Shown piece by piece: positions 1,952-25,370 of a stretch of 64,000 nt of DNA. This DNA is from Hydrogenovibrio halophilus DSM 15072 (lineage in GTDB: Bacteria > Pseudomonadota > Gammaproteobacteria > Thiomicrospirales > Thiomicrospiraceae), in NCBI RefSeq assembly GCF_000384235.1, contig NZ_KB913033.1, positions 124,001 through 188,000 on the forward strand, read 5' to 3'. Position numbers and translations under genes: made by a program. Numbering within the stretch: position 1 is the first letter of the stretch; each line of letters opens with the position of its first letter. The notes beneath the pieces are model-generated. The model saw nothing but the letters and a program-made list of their open reading frames with translations. It was not told where the DNA came from and made no database searches.

Positions 1952-4531
1952 CTAGCCGCGTCCGTGATCCTCGGCCATCTCATTCTCCATATCATTGAGC
2001 AGGTTCACCACCTCGTTACTGAGCCGTTCCAGCTCGTCCAGCTGCGCTTCCGCCGCCTTGGTGTCGCCCAGGTTTTTCAACTCAATGATCTTGCCGACGT
2101 GCGCATGCATGGCCACGTGGGTTTGTTCAAGCGTCTGGAATTTCGGATTGCCTTGATATTGTTGGCCACTGCCGTAAATCCAGGCACCCAGCTCACAGGC
2201 TTTGGGATCGACCGCTTTTTCCGGCACCACACCCACATCAAAGCCGTGAATGAACGCACGAGCCTTGGCTCGCCACTGACGGTGGGCCATACGGATGCGC
2301 ACAAAATTCACATCCGAGTTCAAGGCCGAGGCGTGATTACGCGGCAGGATTTTAAAGCTGTCCGCGTTTTTGGTCATGGCCGCGGTCAGCATTTCCAACT
2401 GTTCGGCGGACTGATTGGTGTCTTCGGCCATGGCCGCATTTTTCTGCACCCCGCCGTCGATTGACGCAATCGCTTCATTGATCTGGGCGATGCCTTTGCT
2501 TTGCTCCTGGCTGGAACGTGAGATTTCCTCAATCACCGCCAGGGTGTCTTCGATCGCGGTCTGAATCTCATTGAGGGCTTCACCCGAATCGTTGACATAG
2601 GTCGAACCCTGTCCGACTTTTTCAATGGTGTCTTCAATCAACCCCCGAATTTCCTTGGACGCCTCCGACGACTTGCCGGCCAGCGAGCGTACCTCACCGG
2701 CCACCACGGCAAAGCCGCGACCGTGTTCCCCGGCGCGCGCCGCTTCCACCGCCGCATTCAGCGCCAGCAGATTGGTCTGAAACGCAATCGAATCAATCAG
2801 GCTGATGATGTCGCCAATGCGCTGACTGGCGGTATTGATCGAATCCATGGATTCAATCGCCTGCTGCATCACCGACACCCCACGCTTGGCGCGGTCCACG
2901 GCCGACTGGGCTTTCTGTGAAGCCTGAATCGCATTGTCGGAACTGCTTTCCACCGCACTGGTGATCTGTTCCATGGAGGCCGAAGTTTCTTCCAGCGAGG
3001 CCGCCTGATTCTGCGAACTCTCACTCAAAGTCGCGCTGGCCGTGTGCACACGACGAGAGTCTTCGTCAATAAAGCTGGAAATTTCCTGTACTCCGGCCAG
3101 AATGTCGGAGATGTTCTCCATACTCACCGTCAAAGCTTCTTTAACCACGCCAAAATAACCCGGGGCATGCGCCTTGATTTTCTGGTCAAACTGCCCCACC
3201 GACATATTGATCGCCACGTGAGAAGCCATATCAATTGAGTCGACAATGGCATCCAAGGTCATATTCAAGGCTTCGGCCACAGGGCGAATGGACTCACCGG
3301 CCAATTCCAGATTGACCCGGTAATCCAGATTGCCTTCGATAATGCCTTCGTGAATGTGCTTCACCTCGTTTAGCAACTCATGCTCGGAAGTCTTGTCGGC
3401 CCATTCCACTACTGTGCCGATGCGCATACCCATCCGGTTGGTCACCGGCACGAATTTCAGTTTGAGATACAGATCCCCCAAATGGATGTCACTGAAATGG
3501 GTTTGATCTTCCGGTTCAAAAAACGTGGATTTTCCAGCTTGGTCAAACATTTCGATGTTTTTGCCGACCACCTTTTTGGGGTCAAAGTCAGGCAATACAG
3601 ATCGAAACTGCTCTTGACGCTCTTGGAAAAAATCATTCAGCTGCTGGTTGGCATAAACGATGGTGTGATCCTTATCCATCATCATCATATTGGTCCATGC
3701 CTGATCCACCGCAAAATGCAGTCGGTTGCCGCGATCGCGTTCGCTCTCGGTGTCTTCCCGGTAGGCCCCGATCGCCAGCGCGGCCGATTGAATGGCCGCG
3801 CGCAAACGTCCCATATAGGTCTTGCGAATGCTCATGTCCAGCTTAGGCTTACCACCGGAAAGCTGGCGCAGGTAGCCGATGGCCTGACTGATACGATTTT
3901 GCAGGAAAGACCCTATCCACCAAGCAACGCCCAACATCACTAAGGAAAGCGCCATCAACCCCCAAACGGGCATCTGATCCACCAAGGTATGCGTCAACAC
4001 CAACGGCAGTACACCAACCAACAAAGCCAGTCCGACCATCTGGGTCTGTGGCCCCATTTTGGAAGTGACAAAATTGCGACGCATGCCCGTATGAAATTCG
4101 CTGTGATAAATCTTCAGCTTGCCCTGGCGCACCTGCTCATAAGCCTGCATGGCTTCCTGCTTGGCCGACTCGGACACTTTCTCCCGCACTGACAGATAAC
4201 CGGTAATCTGCCCTTGGTCGTCATACACTGGGGTGGCATTGGCCTGAACCCAGTAATGACTGCCGTCCTTACACCGGTTTTTCACCACCTGGGTCCAGGG
4301 CAAGCCCTCTTTGAGGGTGCGCCACATGTCGGCAAACACCGCTTCGGGCACGTCCGGATGGCGCACAATATTATGATTGGCACCCAAAAGCTCCTTGCGG
4401 GAGAAGCCACTGATCACTTCAAACGCATCGTTGCACTGGGTGATGGTTCCGTGCAAATCGGTGGATGAGACCAGTCGCAGTCCCTCGGGGATCGGCGTTT
4501 CTTTGTTTGTTACCGGTTGGTTGTTTCTCAT
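1952..4531 (-). CDS. Methyl-accepting chemotaxis protein with PAS domains and C-terminal CZB domain
   Basis: This is an 859-residue chemoreceptor. An Aer-type PAS domain (about 10-120) carries the usual NIVRHPDVP segment. Two close membrane helices follow (about 165-210), then a second PAS-like domain (about 270-380) and a HAMP-like linker. The MCP signalling coiled coil (about 480-720) contains the conserved hairpin tip [20 protein letters not shown]. The last 110 residues form a CZB domain with Hxx[11 protein letters not shown] and HxxxH motifs, a known zinc-binding fold. There is no periplasmic sensing domain, so it most likely senses redox or energy state and zinc or an oxidant in the cytoplasm. 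Monocistronic, with its own terminator downstream. No other che genes are in the window. Confidence 0.9.
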
Positions 4532-4602
4532 AGTGCACCACTTTTATCATTTACTTGTTTTTTATCAATAACGATCACGCAAGCATAAATAATGCCATTT
4601 TT

Positions 4603-4614
4603 AACAGGCCTGGT
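4603..4614. repeat. ACCAGGCCTGGT palindrome, one mismatch
   Basis: Copy with A in place of C at position 2. It lies between the chemoreceptor start and the dapB terminator. See the finding on this motif. Confidence 0.6.
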
Positions 4615-4667
4615 AAAAACAGCAAAACCCTGGACATACTTGAACGTTTTTTGCATATTTTAGGTAA

Positions 4668-4695
4668 CAAAAAAGGCGCCGAAGCGCCTTTTTTT
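4668..4695 (-). terminator. Rho-independent terminator of dapB (bidirectional shape)
   Basis: A 9-bp stem (4671-4679 with 4684-4692) has a CGAA loop and is flanked by A and T runs on either side. It lies directly after the dapB stop codon on the minus strand. Confidence 0.85.
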
Positions 4696-4699
4696 GGAA

Positions 4700-5506
<807 letters not shown>

Positions 5507-5528
5507 TTACCCATCCTGTTTGTCGCGT

Positions 5529-6680
5529 TTATTTCCAGGGCTCTTCCCGGTCGCCTTTGTCCGCCTCGTCATCGCCCTTGAAAAAGGCGCGCACCGCGTC
5601 CAGAAAACTCTGCGATTTGGGGCTGTGCTTATGATGCTTGCCCTCAAAGCTTTGTTCCAACTGCTCAAGCAGATCTTTCTGCTCGGAGGTCAGTTTCACC
5701 GGCGTTTCAATATGAACCTGCACAATCATATCACCGATGCGGTTGGAACGCACCGACTTGACCCCTTTGCCCGCCAGCTTGAAACGCTGCCCTGACTGGG
5801 TGCCGGGCGGAATCTTCAGATTGGCCTTGCCTGCCAGCGTCGGCACTTCAATGGTGCCGCCCAGCGCCGCGGTGGTAAAGGAGAGCGGCAACTCGCACAG
5901 CAGGTTATTGCCGTCACGGGTAAAGATTTTGTGTGACTTGACGTGAATGCGCACATACAAATCGCCATGTGGTGCGCCCGGCTCGCCCGCTTCGCCTTCG
6001 CCCTGCAAACGAATGCGATCGCCATTGTCCACGCCCGCCGGAATTCTGACCGACAGGGTCTTGTGACTGCGCTTGAAGCCTTCGCCCCGACAGGCTTTAC
6101 ACGGCGTTTTCACAATCTTGCCGGTGCCATGACAGGTCGGACAAGTACGCTCCACCGCAAAGAAGCCCTGCTGCATGCGGACCTTGCCCATGCCCTCACA
6201 GGTCGGACAGGTCTGCACATCGGAACCGGGTTCCGCACCCGAGCCGTCGCATTTGTCGCAGGGTTCTTTGGTCGGAATCCGAATGTCGACTTCGGTGCCG
6301 CTGACAGCGTCTTCCAGGCTCACATCCAATTCGTACTGCAGGTCATTGCCCGGCTGGGGACCGCGACGACCGCCGAAGCCGCCACCGAAAATGTCGCCGA
6401 AAATGTCGCCGAAATCAAAACCGCCACCGCCGAAGCCGCCGCCTTGCGCCTGACCGTCCACGCCGGCGTGACCAAACTGATCATAGGCCTGACGCTTTTG
6501 CGGGTCCGAAAGCACCTCGTAGGCTTCCGACGCTTCCTTGAACTTGGTTTCCGCTTCGGGGTTGTCCGGGTTGCGGTCCGGGTGGTAGCGCATCGCCATT
6601 TTGCGGTACGCCTTTTTGATTTCGCCTTCGGTTGCGGTTTTAGACAGTTCTAAAACCTCATAATAATCGCGTTTGCTCAT
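5529..6680 (-). CDS. dnaJ: Molecular chaperone DnaJ (Hsp40)
   Basis: This is the cochaperone that delivers unfolded clients to DnaK and stimulates its ATPase. The 383 residues hold a J domain with the HPD motif (about residues 33-35), a Gly/Phe-rich linker (about 75-110, with repeated FGGG-type segments), four CxxCxGxG zinc motifs ([32 protein letters not shown]; about 145-210) and a C-terminal substrate-binding region. It is a full-length class I DnaJ. It lies between dnaK, 522 bp upstream, and dapB, 25 bp downstream. The long gap to dnaK with hairpins suggests that it may also have its own promoter. Confidence 0.97.
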
Positions 6681-17352: not shown

Positions 17353-17947
17353 TGTCGTCCTGAGCGAAGCCGAAGGATCTCCCAAACACCGCCGAGCTAC
17401 CAAGAAACCATGGAAAGATCCCTCCGCTCCGGTCGGGATGACAAAGAATTCAGGGCGAAGATAACTGCTTATGATGCCTTCCTAGCAAAAAAACCTGTCA
17501 TCCTGTGCGAAAAAAAACTGCCATCCCGAGCAAAAAAAAACTGTCATCCTGTGCGAAAATACTCTGTCATCCTGAGCGAAGCCGAAGGATCTCCCAAACA
17601 CCGCCGAGCTACCAACCGGCCATTGAAAGATCCCTCCGCTCCGGTCGGGATGACAAAGAATTCAGGGCGAAGATAACTGCTTATGATGCCTTCCTAGCAA
17701 AAAAACCTGTCATCCTGTGCGAAAAAAAACTGCCATCCCGAGCAAAAAAAAACTGTCATCCTGTGCGAAAATACTCTGTCATCCTGAGCGAAGCCGAAGG
17801 ATCTCCCAAACACCGCCGAGCTACCAAGCAACCACTGAAAGATCCCTCCGCTCCGGTCGGGATGACAAAGAATTCAGGGCGAAGATAACTGCTTATGATG
17901 CCTTCCTAGCAAAAAACCTGTCATCCTGAGCGAAGCCGAAGGATCTC
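17353..17947. repeat. Tandem array of inverted-repeat element (212-bp period)
   Basis: Three units of exactly 212 bp (phase marker TGAGCGAAGC at 17361, 17573, 17785) and a partial fourth at about 17919-17947. Each unit has the inverted pair GTCATCCTGAGCGAAGCCGA / TCCGGTCGGGATGACA around CACCGCCGAGCTACCAA. A spacer follows with three short copies of (G/C)TGTCATCC(T)GTGCGAAAA-like sequence. The units are almost identical, so the amplification is recent. No gene is present in the 840-bp gap 17253-18092. Confidence 0.9.
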
Positions 17948-18092: not shown

Positions 18093-18650
18093 ATGCACTC
18101 TAACGAGAACAAAACAGAAACCAAGAAAAACCAAAAAGGCTTCACCCTCGTCGAAATCGCCATCGTACTGGTCATTATCGGCTTGCTTTTGGGCGGTGTG
18201 CTTAAGGGGCAGGAGTTGATTCAGAACTCGAAACTCAGCTCGGTCGTACAAGATTTTGAAGGCATCCAATCTGCTTATTATGCTTATCAGGACAGATTAG
18301 GTCGAGTGCCGCAAACAGATAGTGACGGCAACAGTGATCTTTCAAACTTCTGGGCTAATTTGCAATCTGAAGGCTTTATAAGCGGTGCTCAAGGCACTGC
18401 GGAGGCTGACAACGGGCCTAATCACAGCCTTGGTGGGGCTTTTGTATTTTACCCAGACGATACAACTGACGTTGGTGGAAGTACAGGTGTATTTTCAACA
18501 CCACAGATTTGTGCAACACAGTTACCTAACACAAATGATGATGATGTTGCTACACAGATTGACAGGAAGATTGATGACGGTAATTTAACGGATGGAAATA
18601 TTACAGAACTTACTGATGCAGACCCAGCTACATTGTGTATGAAGCTTTAA
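18093..18650 (+). CDS. Type IV pilin-like protein
   Basis: This 185-residue prepilin has leader plus site KGFTLVEIAIVLVIIGLLLGG, followed by GVLKGQELIQNSK and YYAYQDRLGRVPQTDSDGN. The C-terminal part carries ICATQLP, the acidic loop DRKIDDGNLTDGNI and a final Cys, giving a probable disulfide-bounded D-region. Its head is nearly the same at DNA level as the broken copy at 19137 and is shared with the pilins at 20745 and 22613. The tails differ and are poorer in GC. GGGAG lies 6 bases before the ATG. It is an isolated single-gene unit between repeat arrays. Confidence 0.8.
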   Translation: MHSNENKTETKKNQKGFTLVEIAIVLVIIGLLLGGVLKGQELIQNSKLSSVVQDFEGIQSAYYAYQDRLGRVPQTDSDGNSDLSNFWANLQSEGFISGAQGTAEADNGPNHSLGGAFVFYPDDTTDVGGSTGVFSTPQICATQLPNTNDDDVATQIDRKIDDGNLTDGNITELTDADPATLCMKL

Positions 18651-18730
18651 AAGCCCCCTCAATCGTACCCACGCTCCCGCGTGGGTACGCACACACAGTA
18701 AACGACACGACTCGACTATTTTAAGAAAAC

Positions 18731-18822
18731 AAGAAAGAAAAAGGACACCCATGTTTCTTTGCTTTCCTTCGGCTCTTTTCCTATACTGCATTTAACTTAA
18801 TCTTACTTCGGAGCCCTCATTA
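18731..18822 (+). repeat. Copy A of the RAYT leader (no coding part)
   Basis: About 90 bp nearly identical to the transposase leader at 19395-19481, starting at AAAGGACACCC and running to GGAGCCCTCATTA. The sequence leaves the homology exactly where the ATG would be. It is followed at once by a second, shorter AAAAAGGACACCC copy (about 18826-18860). The rest up to 19136 (about 275 bp) shows no gene I can support. Confidence 0.7.
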
Positions 18823-19136
18823 AGTAAGAAAAAAAGGACACCCATATTTCTTTTCCGTTCCTCTAACCACTGCCTCAAATTCCCGCTCCCCAAAATCGAT
18901 TTTCTAAAAAACTCCTGGCTACGAGTCAATCGACTGCAGCTGATTTCATCAGCTTTTGGGTCCATGCCTTCAAAACAGCAATCGACAGGCAAGCCACCAA
19001 AACCACGATCAGATTTCGCTACCGAACATAAAATCTTAAACATTTTTACGGATGATATATTGTGACAATCTCGCGCTTATGGTTTACAATCACACTAAAA
19101 ATCAGTAGTTAATCTTATCAAAACAAAGGACGATCC

Positions 19137-19292
19137 ATGCGTTCTGAAAACAACAAAGGCTTCACGCTTGTTGAAATCGCCATTGTACTGGTCATAATCG
19201 GATTGCTTATGGGCGGCGTTTTAAAAGAAAAAAAGGACACCCAAGTTTCTTTGCTTTTCCTCTCCTCTTTTTCTATACTGCTTTTAACTTAA
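19137..19292 (+). pseudogene. Broken pilin head interrupted by RAYT leader
   Basis: The first 30 codons (MRSENNKGFTLVEIAIVLVI... GGVLK) are a near copy of the pilin heads at 18093 and 20745. At 19227 the reading runs straight into the RAYT leader (GAAAAAAAGGACACC) and stops at 19292, leaving 51 codons. The original pilin tail is missing. It could still be translated as a short membrane peptide with a prepilin cleavage site. The junction suggests insertion or recombination at the AAAAGGACACCC boundary. Confidence 0.75.
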
Positions 19293-19313
19293 TCTTATTT
19301 CGGAGTCCTCGTT

Positions 19314-19394
19314 ATGACCCGTGCCCGTGATTCGCAAATCAATCTTTCTGAAACCCCTTGGTATCATCTGGTTAATCGTTGTGTTCGCCGATAA
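19314..19394 (+). pseudogene. Truncated RAYT transposase head
   Basis: 26 codons (MTRARDSQINLSETPWYHLV, NRCVRR) that match the start of the full transposase at 19482 at about 93% DNA identity by eye. A stop comes at 19392, where another AAAAAGAAAAGGACACCC leader begins. The truncation point is directly at a leader boundary. Confidence 0.8.
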
Positions 19395-19481
19395 AAAGAA
19401 AAGGACACCCATGTTTCTTTGCTTTCCTTCGGCTCTTTTCCTATACTGCATTTAACTTAATCTTACTTCGGAGCCCTCATT
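19395..19481 (+). repeat. Leader of the intact RAYT gene (copy D)
   Basis: Same sequence as copy A at 18731-18822. A further diverged copy (C) spans about 19227-19313. It contains CTATACTGC and CGGAGCCCTCATT, which supplies the ribosome-binding site (CGGAG) for the transposase. Confidence 0.75.
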
Positions 19482-20552
19482 ATGACTCGTGCCCGTGATT
19501 CTCAAATCAATCTTTCTGAAACCCCTTGGTATCATCTGGTCAACCGCTGTGTCCGTCGGGCGTTTTTGTGTGGCATAGATGCCATTTCCGGACGCAATTA
19601 TGAGCATCGCAAGCCCTGGATTGAACAGCGCATGATGCAGTTGGCATCGGTCTTTGCCATTGATGTGGCGGCGTTTGCGGTAATGAGCAACCATTATCAT
19701 TTGGTGGTACGGGTCAATCAGGTGAAAGCGGAAAGCTGGTCAATGGATGAGGTGTTACTTCAATGGACCCAGTTGTTTGCAGCGCCAAAGTTGGTGCAGG
19801 ATTATTTGGCTGATCCCAAAGCATTAAGCGCCGGGTCATTAAAGCGAGTACAGGAACAGGTTGAGATTTACCGTGAGCGTTTGATGGATATTTCCTGGTA
19901 TATGCGGGTGTTGAATGAGTCGATTGCCCGTTATGCCAACCAAGAAGATGAGGTCAAAGGCCGGTTCTGGGAAGGCCGCTTCAAGTCTCAGGCCTTGTTG
20001 GATGAACAGGCGGTATTGGCGGCGATGGCGTATGTGGATTTGAATCCGGTGCGGGCCAATATCGCTCGAGAGTTGTTGGATTCGGATTTTACCTCTGTGC
20101 AGCGTCGTTTACAGGGGGTGTATCACTTTGAGGCAGCACCTGAAAAACTACCAGGCCTGGTTAAAAAGACGTCTGACAAAGAATCTGCATTTGCGCAACC
20201 GTTTCTGGAACGGCTGGAGAAGATTCCCACAGCACCATTGCTGGCGTTTGATGCGTCTGGTCTGGAAGACTCCGCCATCCCTTGCTCGGCTACGGATTAC
20301 ATGGCGTATGTGGATTTTCTGGGCCGTGCGGTGCATCCGGATAAGTCCGGGCACATGAATGAAAATCTACCGCCTTTGATGCAGCGATTGGGCTTGGATG
20401 ACAAACACATGGAAGCTTTTGTTCAAAGTAGCTGGTTGAACAAGTTTGGTGGCGCTGTGGGTCAGGTGATGAGCCTGAACAAACACCGGGATGAGCGTGA
20501 TCAACGGTTTGTCAAAGGACAAAGCACCGCCAGAAGGCTGTTCGGTGCTTAA
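19482..20552 (+). CDS. REP-associated tyrosine (Y1) transposase, RAYT family
   Basis: The 356 residues are a Y1 HUH single-strand transposase of the IS200-like RAYT group. The N-terminus MTRARDSQINLSETPWYHLV is typical of the family, the HUH motif reads VMSNHYHLVVRV (about 69-80), and the catalytic Tyr is expected in WYMRVLNESIARYANQ, followed by GRFWEGRFKSQALLD. The C-terminal extension of about 150 residues is normal for the longer RAYTs. These proteins are single-copy, domesticated-looking nucleases linked to dispersal of REP palindromes. Here the gene sits inside a region packed with inverted-repeat elements and truncated copies of its own head. A copy of ACCAGGCCTGGT is embedded in its coding sequence (codons for LPGLV). 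Confidence 0.9.
   Translation: MTRARDSQINLSETPWYHLVNRCVRRAFLCGIDAISGRNYEHRKPWIEQRMMQLASVFAIDVAAFAVMSNHYHLVVRVNQVKAESWSMDEVLLQWTQLFAAPKLVQDYLADPKALSAGSLKRVQEQVEIYRERLMDISWYMRVLNESIARYANQEDEVKGRFWEGRFKSQALLDEQAVLAAMAYVDLNPVRANIARELLDSDFTSVQRRLQGVYHFEAAPEKLPGLVKKTSDKESAFAQPFLERLEKIPTAPLLAFDASGLEDSAIPCSATDYMAYVDFLGRAVHPDKSGHMNENLPPLMQRLGLDDKHMEAFVQSSWLNKFGGAVGQVMSLNKHRDERDQRFVKGQSTARRLFGA
20150..20161. repeat. ACCAGGCCTGGT palindrome, perfect
   Basis: Inside the RAYT gene, read as Leu-Pro-Gly-Leu-Val. Confidence 0.85.
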
Positions 20553-20744
20553 AAGGCGTCACGATCAACCGTAAATACCTTTAATGATGCCTCCACTTCG
20601 GGCGGCATGACAAAATCATCAATCTGCGCCAAAAAGCCGCTCCCCTCTCATTTCGCATGGGTGACATGACTGACGTTTGGCTCTATAATCCCAAGTTAAT
20701 ATCGGGATTTTCAAACATAAACGATTGATCCATAAGGTGGTCAC

Positions 20745-21338
20745 ATGCACTCTGAAACAAACAAAGGCTTCACCCTAATCGAAATTTCGCTGGTCCTTGT
20801 GATTATCGGCCTGTTGTTGGGCGGTGTTCTCAAGGGCAGTGAAATGATTGAGAATGCCAAGATCAATCGAGTGACATCCGATCAGGAAGAAGTGCGGGCG
20901 ATTTTGTATGCGTTTCAGGATCGCTATGGTGCCTTGCCGGGTGACTTTGATCGCGCTGACGAAACCCTGAATTTGGATGGAACCAATGGCAATGGCAACC
21001 ATATCATCGAGGGTGATTGGTATGGCAGCGATGGGGAAAGCCGAATGATGTGGATGCACTTGCGTGCAGCCGGTTTTATCTCCGGAAACACCACCTCTTC
21101 TACACAGCCTCGAAACAGTTTTGATGGCATTATCGGTGTAGAAACCAATGCCTTTGGCATGACCGGTCATGTGATTTGCATGTCCAACATTCCACGTGAT
21201 GTGGTGATTGGCCTGACCACCAAACATGACAATGGCGAAACCGACGACGGTCAGATCCGGGCCGGTGACAGTGAAACTGGCTCGGAACCCATTTCTGAGC
21301 TGGACAGTGAGCGAGTCAACGTCTGCTTCGCAGAATAG
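20745..21338 (+). CDS. Type IV pilin-like protein
   Basis: This 197-residue prepilin has a 7-residue leader and KGFTLIEISLVLVIIGLLLGG, then GVLKGSEMIENAKINRVTSDQ and YAFQDRYGALPGD. The tail contains VICMSNIP, KHDNGETDDGQIRAGD and a last Cys four residues from the end, the same layout as the pilins at 18093 and 22613. It is an isolated unit downstream of the RAYT gene, with AAGGTGG before the ATG. GALPGDFD resembles the segment found in many major pilins and pseudopilins. The gap 20553-20744 holds a half copy of the intergenic repeat near 20590. Confidence 0.8.
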   Translation: MHSETNKGFTLIEISLVLVIIGLLLGGVLKGSEMIENAKINRVTSDQEEVRAILYAFQDRYGALPGDFDRADETLNLDGTNGNGNHIIEGDWYGSDGESRMMWMHLRAAGFISGNTTSSTQPRNSFDGIIGVETNAFGMTGHVICMSNIPRDVVIGLTTKHDNGETDDGQIRAGDSETGSEPISELDSERVNVCFAE

Positions 21339-21387
21339 CTTTCTGGTTTGAACAGGATGTGTCGTCATCCTGAGCAAAACAAACCTG

Positions 21388-21604
21388 TCACCCTGAGCGA
21401 AGCCGAAGGGCCTTTCAACGACCGTGCCAGGCCTCAAAAGATGCCTCCGCTTCGGTCGGCATGACAAGGTAGTTTGATTGCTCTCGGTCAAGGCTTCGTT
21501 AAACACATATCCGGCGAAACACCGGTCATCCTGAGCGAAGCCGAAGGGCCTTTCAACGACCGTGCCAGGCCTCAAAAGATGCCTCCGCTTCGGTCGGCAT
21601 GACA
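21388..21604. repeat. Two copies of the inverted-repeat element (138-bp period)
   Basis: Units at about 21388-21472 and 21523-21604 share CTGAGCGAAGCCGAAGGGCC, CGACCGTGCCAGGCCTCAAA and the inverted arm CTCCGCTTCGGTCGGCATGA. The second unit, with the leader after it (to about 21715), is duplicated upstream of the pilin at 22613. Confidence 0.85.
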
Positions 21605-21615
21605 ATATGTCGGGG

Positions 21616-21715
21616 CATCCTTCCTAAAACCCATGCAATAAAATACGTACACCTTTTTTATTTACGCTATTTTATGTAAATATAGACTTGTCGCATGATT
21701 TTAGGAGGTCTGTGC
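21616..21715 (+). repeat. Orphan copy of a pilin leader region
   Basis: About 100 bp aligned by eye with 22514-22614, the leader of the pilin at 22613. It includes TACG(T/C)ACACCT, TTTACGCTATTTT(A/G)TGTAAA and the strong ribosome-binding site GGAGGTCT. In this copy the binding site is followed by GTG and a short frame that stops after about 36 codons with no pilin sequence. The pilin gene has been lost or replaced by the two small membrane protein genes downstream. Confidence 0.7.
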
Positions 21716-21838
21716 GGCCCTCCAAGCCTTTCTTGTCTCCATGCTGGTACATTGGATCTGTGTTTGATTTCACAGCATATCTGTTTGTGCTAACATTCAC
21801 ATTTAATATGTGCCTAATAAACTTTTGAAGTTACTTGC

Positions 21839-22066
21839 ATGTCACAGGAAAAACAACTAGAACAGGAGATTGGCTGGTACAAGGTCGTTTTTGCAGTGCT
21901 GGCGGCGATTGATGTGTCTCTGCTTGCCTGGTTTGCTCAGAACTATGAATCTCAGAGCACCGTCTTACTCACAACCTGTTTTATTGCCATAATTTTTGTA
22001 TCCATTGGCATCGCTCTGATTAATTTCAACGTTTTCAGATGCTTAAAAAAATTAAAGGATCTCTGA
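21839..22066 (+). CDS. Small two-helix membrane protein of unknown function
   Basis: 75 residues: an acidic start (MSQEKQLEQEIGWYKVV), two hydrophobic helices (about 14-33 and 42-63) separated by the short loop AQNYESQST, and a basic end (FRCLKKLKDL). I recall similar small proteins, with GWYK near the N-terminus and KKIKEL(K)DL at the end, annotated as hypothetical proteins in mobile regions of many bacteria. They are often paired with a tiny one-helix protein, as here. No function is known to me. It is translationally coupled to the next gene (TGATG overlap). Confidence 0.6.
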   Translation: MSQEKQLEQEIGWYKVVFAVLAAIDVSLLAWFAQNYESQSTVLLTTCFIAIIFVSIGIALINFNVFRCLKKLKDL

Positions 22067-22146
22067 TGGAATACCTGGTCGCCATTGCACTCGCTGTATT
22101 CATTGCCAGTCTGATGTTTGTTGTGTACAAATCTTTCAAGCATTAA
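22066..22146 (+). CDS. Tiny single-helix membrane protein, partner of the preceding gene
   Basis: 26 codons: MEYLVAIALAVF, then a helix through FIASLMFVVY and the basic end KSFKH. Its ATG overlaps the TGA of the previous gene (TGATG). The coupling, the membrane helix and the partner's presence suggest a real gene. A membrane-complex subunit or a toxin-like peptide are both possible, and neither can be shown from sequence alone. Confidence 0.5.
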   Translation: MEYLVAIALAVFIASLMFVVYKSFKH

Positions 22147-22261
22147 TCCCTCGTCATTAATCTTAATGGCTTTGACTTAACACACCTGTGGATTGCATCA
22201 TCAGGTGAGCAATCTGATCTCTAAATAATAATGAAGTAAACAGGAAAAGAACCCTCATTAC

Positions 22262-22500
22262 CCGATCATCTGAGCGAAATCAAAGGGTCTTCCAACGAGC
22301 CTGCCAAACCCATAAAGATGCCTCCGCTCCGGTCGGAATGACACAGAGAGCAAGATCGTGCATGACTTCGTTAAATACATGCTTGGCAAAACGCCTGTCA
22401 TCCTGAGCAAAAACTCTTGTCATCCTGAGCGAAGCCGAAGGATCTTCCAACGACCGTGCCAGGCCTCAAAAGATGCCTCCGCTTCAGTCGGCATGACAAA
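22262..22500. repeat. Two further copies of the inverted-repeat element
   Basis: Units at about 22265-22343 (degenerate left arm CATCTGAGCGAAATC) and 22415-22499 (full arms). The stretch 22360-22614 is a diverged duplicate of 21486-21715. No gene is present in 22147-22612. Confidence 0.8.
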
Positions 22501-23844: not shown

Positions 23845-24159
23845 ATGCAATCTGACGCAAAGATCCTCACATCCATAGGTCTTTATCTGGAGCAGGCTCG
23901 CCTGGCCAGGCGTTTGAAACAGTCTGAACTGGCCGAACGTGCCGGAGTGACTCGCCAGACCATTGGCAAAATTGAATCCGGCCAGCCTGTGCAAAGTAAA
24001 AACCTGATTAAAACCATTTGGGCGCTGGGGCTGGATGAAGCGCTATGCCAGGCTCTTGCACCGGAAAACGATGCGCTGGCCAGAAGTCTGGCATTTGGTT
24101 CTCTGCCGAAAAAAATCCGCAGCAAGTGGGATCAAGCAGATGAACAAGGAGAATTCTGA
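23845..24159 (+). CDS. hipB: HipB-like antitoxin, XRE-type repressor
   Basis: This 104-residue protein has a helix-turn-helix domain (about 15-70): RLKQSELAERAGVTRQTIGKIESGQPV. It is the usual DNA-binding antitoxin of HipBA modules: it neutralises HipA and represses the operon. A Glu- and Asp-rich C-terminus follows (KWDQADEQGEF). It overlaps hipA by one base (TGATG), the normal tight coupling. The pair lies at the right edge of the repeat-rich island, and an AT-rich stretch upstream (about 23710-23840) probably holds the autoregulated promoter. Confidence 0.85.
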   Translation: MQSDAKILTSIGLYLEQARLARRLKQSELAERAGVTRQTIGKIESGQPVQSKNLIKTIWALGLDEALCQALAPENDALARSLAFGSLPKKIRSKWDQADEQGEF

Positions 24160-25370
24160 TGGGGCTGCAAAAACTGTATGTGTTCGGATCAGATACCAAG
24201 CTACTGGGCAGGCTTGAAAAACGTCTGGATGGATACGAGTTTAAGTACGCTAAAAGCTACCTTGATGACCATTCTGCCTTGGCTCTGAACCCGGTTCGCC
24301 TCCCACTGGTGGAAAAAACGTTCTTTGCCAAGTTCGCTGGCTCCGAAGAAGGCTTTACGGGCATTTTAAGCGTTTTTGGTGATGCATTACCCGGTGCTTG
24401 GGGCAAAGCGGTGTTAAACGCTCAGGCCAATCGAAAACTAACTCCCTTTGAACAGTTATTGGAAAATCAACGGGACCGGATTGGCCACCTTGTCTTCAGC
24501 GAGGACATGACCTTTCCTGTTCTGACCGACTCTCGCAGTTTGCCCCCTTTTCAGTGGGAAGACATCCTTGATGCCAAAGACGAGTTTGAACGACGCAAAC
24601 GGTTTCCACCGGCTTTTTCGGCACTTTTCAAACAGGGAGCCAGCCAAGGTGGTGCCCGTCCCAAACTCAGCGTGATCAAAAACAATCAGCCCTATTTGGC
24701 CAAACTGCCGACCATTCAGGATTATGAGAACAAAGCACAAATCGAACACGGTACCCTTGCCCTTGCAAGGGAAGTGGGCATTCAAACGGCAGAATCCAGC
24801 CTAATCAAGGTGCGCCCAACTCAGGACATTTTTCTGACCAAACGATTTGATTACACTGGCCAGTACAAGCGGCCCTTTTTAAGCATGAAAGCGCTATTGG
24901 CTGCAGACCATTGCGCCGATGTGTCTTATGGTGATTTTGCTCTGGCACTTCAACGAATCAACGGAGGGAAAGACTCGCATGAAATTTTCAAAAGGATGCT
25001 GTTGAACGCCATGATCAGCAACCATGACGATCATTACTTGAACCACGGTGTACTTTGGGTGGATGGCCAGTGGCGCTTGAGCCCTGCTTTTGATGTGGTC
25101 GCAGGTGAAGGTCATCGCCGAGACCTGGCTATCAGGGCCGGAGAATACGGTGCAGCCCCGACGGAAGAAAATCTGCTGTCTGAACACGACAAGTTTTCAC
25201 TCACCCGAACAGAGGCCAAAGACATTTTTGATCAAATGAAAGACACAATCGCAGAAAAATGGGAGGCCGTTTTTTCACAAAATGGCGTTGATGACGATGT
25301 CATCCAGTCCATTTCCTGGGCCATTTTGGATGGCTTTGATCTACCAGTTCAAAAAAACAACGGTTCTTAG
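24159..25370 (+). CDS. hipA: HipA-like Ser/Thr kinase toxin
   Basis: This 403-residue kinase belongs to the HipA family. Such toxins phosphorylate a translation component (glutamyl-tRNA synthetase in E. coli) and halt growth. It has the N-terminal subdomain (about 1-115, ending near GDALPGAWG), the loop GASQGGARPKLSV (phosphorylated Ser/Gly-rich loop region), the catalytic loop SNHDDHYLNHG with the base Asp, and SPAFDV with the metal-binding Asp. All key residues appear intact, so the toxin should be active. It is coupled to hipB. A repeat element follows the stop. Confidence 0.88.
   Translation: MGLQKLYVFGSDTKLLGRLEKRLDGYEFKYAKSYLDDHSALALNPVRLPLVEKTFFAKFAGSEEGFTGILSVFGDALPGAWGKAVLNAQANRKLTPFEQLLENQRDRIGHLVFSEDMTFPVLTDSRSLPPFQWEDILDAKDEFERRKRFPPAFSALFKQGASQGGARPKLSVIKNNQPYLAKLPTIQDYENKAQIEHGTLALAREVGIQTAESSLIKVRPTQDIFLTKRFDYTGQYKRPFLSMKALLAADHCADVSYGDFALALQRINGGKDSHEIFKRMLLNAMISNHDDHYLNHGVLWVDGQWRLSPAFDVVAGEGHRRDLAIRAGEYGAAPTEENLLSEHDKFSLTRTEAKDIFDQMKDTIAEKWEAVFSQNGVDDDVIQSISWAILDGFDLPVQKNNGS

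Follow-up and report, generated by a model that had tools for sequence, protein, structure and literature searches.

An intact RAYT-type transposase gene of Hydrogenovibrio halophilus DSM 15072 stands at the end of a nested array in which four units, each headed by the same short DNA box, follow one another between two pilin genes. The outer edge of these units is fixed relative to the box, and their 3' ends are variable, each abutting the next box. The core of the box recurs upstream of the gene across its family and, in a part of the loci, again in inverted orientation downstream, which suggests that the box marks the ends of the family's element and that pieces starting at the box get copied. 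We propose that the array is a stack of end fragments from a single-strand transposon, whose HUH enzyme would copy box-headed DNA one-endedly onto resident boxes, a reading to which we give about an even chance. The family-wide anatomy is real and belongs to a known kind of element; the one-ended reaction itself is likely but unproven.

The window, that is, the whole 64-kb stretch of DNA analysed here, comprises bases 124001-188000 of the single-contig genome (G000; 2,356,686 bases), and the features of the array are collected in Table 1. The leader of the RAYT gene is found three times, at 18734-18822, 19226-19314, and 19394-19482, with 87-98% identity, and the 12-mer AAAAGGACACCC lies at 18739, 18832, 19231, and 19399, always on the + strand. 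With up to one mismatch allowed, this 12-mer has four sites in the whole window against 0.39 expected, a number reached in none of 100 shuffles. The sequence shared by the units starts a few nucleotides left of AAAAGGACACCC, about 7-12 nt 5' of GGACACCC; the bases immediately left of the units differ by a few nucleotides, so that the outer edge is not base-exact in this genome. The - strand has no GGACACCC anywhere in the 64-kb window, and the window RAYT is without an inverted box on its right.

Table 1. Features of the pilin-RAYT region (window positions 18,093-21,338)
Feature	Position	Strand	Remark or basis
Pilin-like gene A, intact	18093..18650	+	left neighbour of array; Pfam N_methyl
Unit w0: box 18736-18759 and leader only, ends at start codon	18736..18822	+	79/79 nt identical to intact-gene leader
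Unit w1: solo 24-nt box 18829-18852 (2 mismatches), about 285 nt, pilin head	18829..19227	+	
Pilin head of unit w1: about 30 codons, broken off against next box			N_methyl match
Unit w2: box 19228-19251, leader, 26 RAYT codons, ends against next box	19228..19391	+	
Unit w3: box 19396-19419 and leader (promoter region) of intact RAYT	19396..19481	+	box-gene distance same in most homologs
Intact RAYT/TnpAY1 gene, 356 aa	19482..20552	+	NHYH 70-73, WE 163-164, YVDLNP 184-189
Half copy of unrelated genome repeat, fused behind RAYT	20578..20614	+	repeat-family match
Pilin-like gene C, intact	20745..21338	+	right neighbour of array; Pfam

This anatomy modifies the preliminary description of the locus, which had counted at least three leader copies ahead of the intact gene: the repeats are real, but they consist of two extra leaders and one solo box, the third leader being the intact gene's own. 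The copies that it listed separately at 19227 (fused to the pilin) and 19314 (with 26 RAYT codons) are one single copy, in which the leader is followed by the 26 codons and a stop. The short box-only copy that it placed near 18826 is present, and so is the broken pilin, an ORF that starts at 19137, retains about 30 pilin codons, and then reads into the box. The box itself had been described there as a site next to which copies insert; a role as target alone is rejected, since the box lies inside every copied unit and travels as the head of the copy. Beyond that description are also the solo boxes elsewhere in the genome, the conservation of the box in the gene family, and the inverted box at the far end in other genera.

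Two other features of the neighbourhood are recorded here. A different repeat family (GTCATCCTGAGCGAAGCCGAAGG...) is abundant, occurring at 17500-17934, 20578-20614, and 21383-22500 of the window, and a half copy of it is fused 3' of the window RAYT and also of its 1216-kb and 1226-kb relatives. Further along, window 23845-25370 encodes a HipB-like HTH protein (NCBIfam couple_hipB, E 2.4e-10, below the cut-off of the model) followed by a 403-aa protein that is HipA-like by eye and has no NCBIfam match; the box is absent nearby.

Junctions of the same kind occur elsewhere in the genome. A second array at 1224.6-1226.3 kb reads box-leader-79 codons, box-leader-13 codons, box-leader-intact RAYT, and a solo box; a third RAYT, at 1216.8 kb, is without a box and is missing the initial 34 codons; and additional boxes are found at 1345.8-1349.9 kb and at 1439.6 kb. 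Genome-wide, AAAAGGACACCC occurs 14 times (backward control, 0), one of these occurrences, at 2071072, being without the remainder of the 24-nt unit and looking like chance, while the 24-nt unit with up to three mismatches occurs 11 times (control, 0). The exact 21-nt box AAAAGGACACCCATNTTTCTT had no match in genome_contigs, in viral_contigs, or in the 92 other relatives (of 93); the 21-nt form is specific to this genome, whereas the 9-nt core is family-wide. At L016 3068-3253 (1346.6 kb), a gene for a HAD-type hydrolase stops after 61 codons by a degenerate box, like the pilin of the window.

The identities among the copies bear on where the units came from. The leader of w0 matches that of the intact RAYT without a single difference despite the w1 and w2 units in between, and w2 is 138/155 nt identical to the intact gene and 140/155 nt to the 1226-kb copies. 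The 79-codon copy of the second array agrees with the headless RAYT 8 kb away, at 1216.8 kb, in 132/137 positions and with its adjacent neighbour in 295/318; since both contain codons 35-79, they are not two parts of a single gene. In turn, the 79-codon copy is matched by the 13-codon copy in 117/119 positions. This pattern argues against reading the array as recent local duplicates of one gene, though w0 could have stood beside w3 before w1 and w2 were inserted, or could have been equalised by gene conversion. Simple tandem duplication with undefined ends, the alternative named in the preliminary description, was rejected as a sufficient cause, given the fixed left end and the presence of at least two copies that did not arise locally from the unit beside them. 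The empty locus is seen in the congener G005, where two of the pilin genes are adjacent, about 10 nt apart, and RAYT, box, and broken pilin are all absent between them.

RAYT-type enzymes are usually seen as domesticated. The preliminary description had started from the premise that they are immobile, which does not hold for the literature on subclass 2.3 of the TnpAY1 enzymes, described there as multi-copy and spreading (Quentin et al., 2018; PMC6006769). The window protein carries the NHYH, WE, and YVDLNP motifs and the HuH-Tyr spacing of this subclass. General models recover it only below their cut-offs (Pfam Y1_Tnp, E 4.8e-4; NCBIfam REP_Tyr_transpos, 37 bits), and a sequence search against solved structures gave no meaningful match. 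The catalytic signature is conserved among 80 homologs, with N70 and H71 in 79 each, H73 in all 80, W163 (within GRFWEGRF, residues 160-167) in 77, Y184, D186, L187, N188, and P189 in all 80, and V185 in 78. Subclass 2.3 has the same three motifs, a C-terminal extension (356 aa here against a median of 325), an HuH-to-Tyr spacing with a median of about 110 (H73 to Y184 is 111 here), and gammaproteobacterial hosts with several copies per genome, as here (PMC6006769). In the portions of that survey drawn on here, neither automatic nor manual searching found a REP-like sequence for subclass 2.3. Our loci differ from this, a box being present upstream in most of them and inverted downstream in a third; what the survey gives is a reported absence of a repeat and not a defining trait of the subclass (PMC6006769).

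The box was followed through 89 homolog loci, of which 16 came from named genomes, 69 from a class-wide search (29 returned as loci and 40 fetched), and four from the same bacterial family; removing three without a gene start and two duplicates left 84. The family core is GGACA[CG]CCA. Within 160 nt upstream of the gene, [AG]GACAN[CT]CA is present in 61/84 loci against 0.81 expected and the strict form GGACACCCA in 39/84 against 0.055 expected; of the 23 loci with no upstream box, one consists mostly of N there. Of six plasmid loci, two have a GGACACCCA-type box, at -71 and -74, and four have none there. Up to 400 nt downstream of the stop codon, the inverted strict core occurs in 27/78 loci and the same-strand core in 3/78, with 0.26 expected per strand. 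In other genera, the gene thus often lies between inverted boxes, and stacks are found at both outer edges. A conserved REP-like palindrome at the box is not claimed here: arms that look convincing exist in this genome (AAGAAA/TTTCTT), in G037, and in L081, but the family-wide hairpin test is only marginal (mean stem score 10.0 against 9.5 +/- 0.26 for shuffles and 9.1 +/- 0.3 for permutations). GT[AG]G is likewise absent from the consensus positions around the box. Among the matches listed in searches of open-licence papers, none described the box or stacked RAYT heads, and those for GGACACCC as literature text were mostly primer and virus sequences.

The stacking follows a rule that extends beyond this genome. 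The 87 loci contain 116 pairs of direct repeats with a length of 14 nt or more, which are not independent of one another. Of these pairs, 74 begin in the zone 3-15 nt left of a box, to which 1.2% of positions belong, and 42 begin elsewhere; a hand count without the two richest arrays leaves 37/77 in the zone. When adjacent boxes are chosen for at least 4 shared nucleotides left of both, which yields 40 pairs from 19/87 loci, the shared left part measures 4-13 nt in 38 pairs and 35 nt in the other two, while the units range from 19 to 399 nt. Altogether, prefix copies anchored at the outer edge occur in about 20 of the 87 loci; in G036, eight units of 21-128 nt form a run ahead of a further box. 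Truncated gene heads adjoining RAYTs end at a box in 6/6 cases (three in G000 and one each in G036, G037, and L199), a count from which an N-filled locus and the duplicate entries of a locus recurring under a second id were left out. G036 has a further head copy, the seventh, which amounts to a second, near-complete gene. Also in G036, L128 (C2) 5848-6059 has boxes inside or behind the RAYT coding region, beside a second near-complete RAYT. The truncation endpoints recur, at codons 11-13 in three genomes and 78-80 in two (the G000 1226-kb array, G036 C25, G037, and L199), which may hint at preferred stop points inside the gene, so that the ends are possibly not random; no common tetranucleotide was apparent at the variable ends of the junctions examined.

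These observations can be accommodated by a one-ended reaction. The left end of the element would be the box, which reads AGAAAAAGGACACCCATGTTTCTT here, has GGACACCCA as its family core, and lies immediately 5' of the gene promoter; the enzyme would nick the outer edge of the box and retain the 5' end of the box-headed strand. With no second box to set it, the 3' end of that strand could stop anywhere, in box, leader, or gene head, after which the strand would be attached to a resident box, at its outer edge, in the same or at times a different locus. Over successive rounds, 3'-truncated box-headed units would pile up outward, giving leader, pilin head, leader with 26 codons, and intact gene, as in the window. 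A strand with an undefined other end, meeting the nicked edge of a resident box, would produce exactly the observed units. The chemistry has a counterpart in TnpAREP, where one strand is cut, a 5'-phosphotyrosine is formed, and the free 3'-OH serves as primer or nucleophile (PMC8266576). The nick and the covalent intermediate are inferred, as are the transfer of the strand and the direction in which events ran. The preliminary description had suggested that the transposase moved or copied its own 5' end: copies of the RAYT 5' end do exist at the edges of resident GGACACCC boxes, and the enzyme would have had a part in making them.

The main rival holds that full elements once stood side by side at boxes and that the enzyme cut at a box edge, the broken DNA then being rejoined to a point further upstream, so that the upstream element, the pilin, and the HAD-type gene at 1346.6 kb each lost their 3' part. 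Such box-directed deletion accounts for the fixed right and variable left side of every junction, for the few extra bases at junctions, and for both the cut pilin and the HAD gene ending at a box; moreover, two near-complete RAYTs in tandem do exist in G036. However, each unit would first need a full-length insertion, the common units of 19-32 nt, at or near box size, would be a strange residue for random deletion, and no two full RAYTs stand side by side in this genome. We consider deletion unlikely, though it can produce the same junctions and deserves to be taken seriously. An enzyme-free origin, by ordinary slippage in replication or by tandem duplication where the A-rich leader carries its box, would suit the many short, adjacent units and the A/T-rich leader of this genome; yet units start at one place relative to the box in genomes with differing flanks, copies are non-local, and box and gene go together over the 84 loci, which makes this explanation improbable. 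It is very improbable that GGACACCCA serves mainly in autoregulation, as an operator at the RAYT promoter, with stacked copies selected as extra binding sites: a TTGAC-like (-35) word does follow just after the box in 23/61 loci (1.55 expected), but the inverted downstream boxes, truncated heads, and RAYT-distant solo boxes are left unexplained.

Several known systems are close to this family. As in REP/RAYT systems (REPtrons), a Y1 enzyme is accompanied by a short cognate repeat near the gene and a few dispersed copies. In REPtrons, a palindrome has the GT[AG]G tag at its foot; the present box differs in lacking the GTAG tag and a general hairpin and in its few copies (11 in the genome). IS200/IS605 insertion sequences have subterminal hairpins at both ends and are excised as a single-strand circle; in the present family, a hairpin at the box is not general. 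TIRtrons (TIRYT) also have Y1 transposase genes between inverted repeats that are not GTAG REPs, and their TIRs, often dimers or clusters, resemble the box stacks (Di Nocera et al., 2013; PMC3733652). Inverted repeats on both sides of the gene, as in TIRtrons, occur at 27/78 loci of our family by strict cores and are absent at the window RAYT. The TIRtron motif GGGGWSAS (PMC3733652), linked mostly to subclass 2.1 by Quentin et al. (PMC6006769), is not found in the core described here, and box-headed truncated gene heads, present here, are not mentioned for TIRtrons in the parts of that account drawn on (PMC3733652). A precedent for one fixed and one variable end, with truncated end fragments inserted, is IS801 of the IS91 family (PMC3189936). 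Its enzyme belongs to a different family from the RAYT, and tetranucleotides form both the ends of its fragments and the targets of their insertion (PMC3189936), whereas the target here would be the outer edge of a resident box.

Solo boxes also have neighbours of another kind. In this genome, they border HigBA, ParD, HipBA, and a type II-A retron at 1343.5-1350 kb, and a Phd-like/YafQ-like pair with BrnT/BrnA at 1439.6 kb; in G030, they border YoeB-like, Zeta, PIN, and PDC-M68B genes, and in G037 and G047, no such bordering was clear. More specifically, the retron (RT and NDT effector by PADLOC; L016, G000 1343500-1352500, at 4208-6093) ends near box edges of opposite orientation, and the PDC-M68B candidate defence cassette of G030 (L214) lies between two boxes facing away from it. 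At L164 1752-2402 (G005 405500-410000), two GGACACCCA boxes flank a PemK-like toxin-antitoxin pair, a remnant of which is present at the same locus in G000; G005 has no close RAYT of the window family at E <= 1e-5. By a small-ORF criterion (<=150 aa), 4/5 solo-box loci of G000 and G030 have a toxin-antitoxin gene, against 0/35 small ORFs matching a toxin-antitoxin family in a control from the same two genomes (87 ORFs in 20 hand-chosen 4-kb stretches; for the full set, the first 25 of 103 families are among the matches listed). A general toxin-antitoxin cargo was nonetheless rejected: 23 non-RAYT ORFs start no more than 260 nt downstream of a box, and those of toxin-antitoxin type belong to G000, G005, and G030, the judgement outside these three genomes being made by eye; the other loci had no such excess. 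Since boxes and toxin-antitoxin genes both favour unconstrained islands and the pattern is absent in other genera, the association remains an observation only. The broader notion of subclass 2.3 RAYTs as a box-headed cassette system, in which any DNA downstream of a GGACACCC box could be copied from the box outward to a random 3' end and added to the stack at a different box, gathering not just RAYT heads but toxin-antitoxin modules, a retron, and other defence genes into islands, is one that we hold to be improbable.

The 2018 survey, in the portions drawn on here, left this Y1 subclass without a cognate DNA sequence (PMC6006769). The conserved end box, its inverted partner, and the record of truncated copies together provide a concrete substrate for in vitro tests. 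If one-ended copying is true, the puzzling repeats of gene heads would be explained as the products of a one-ended reaction of a RAYT-type enzyme.
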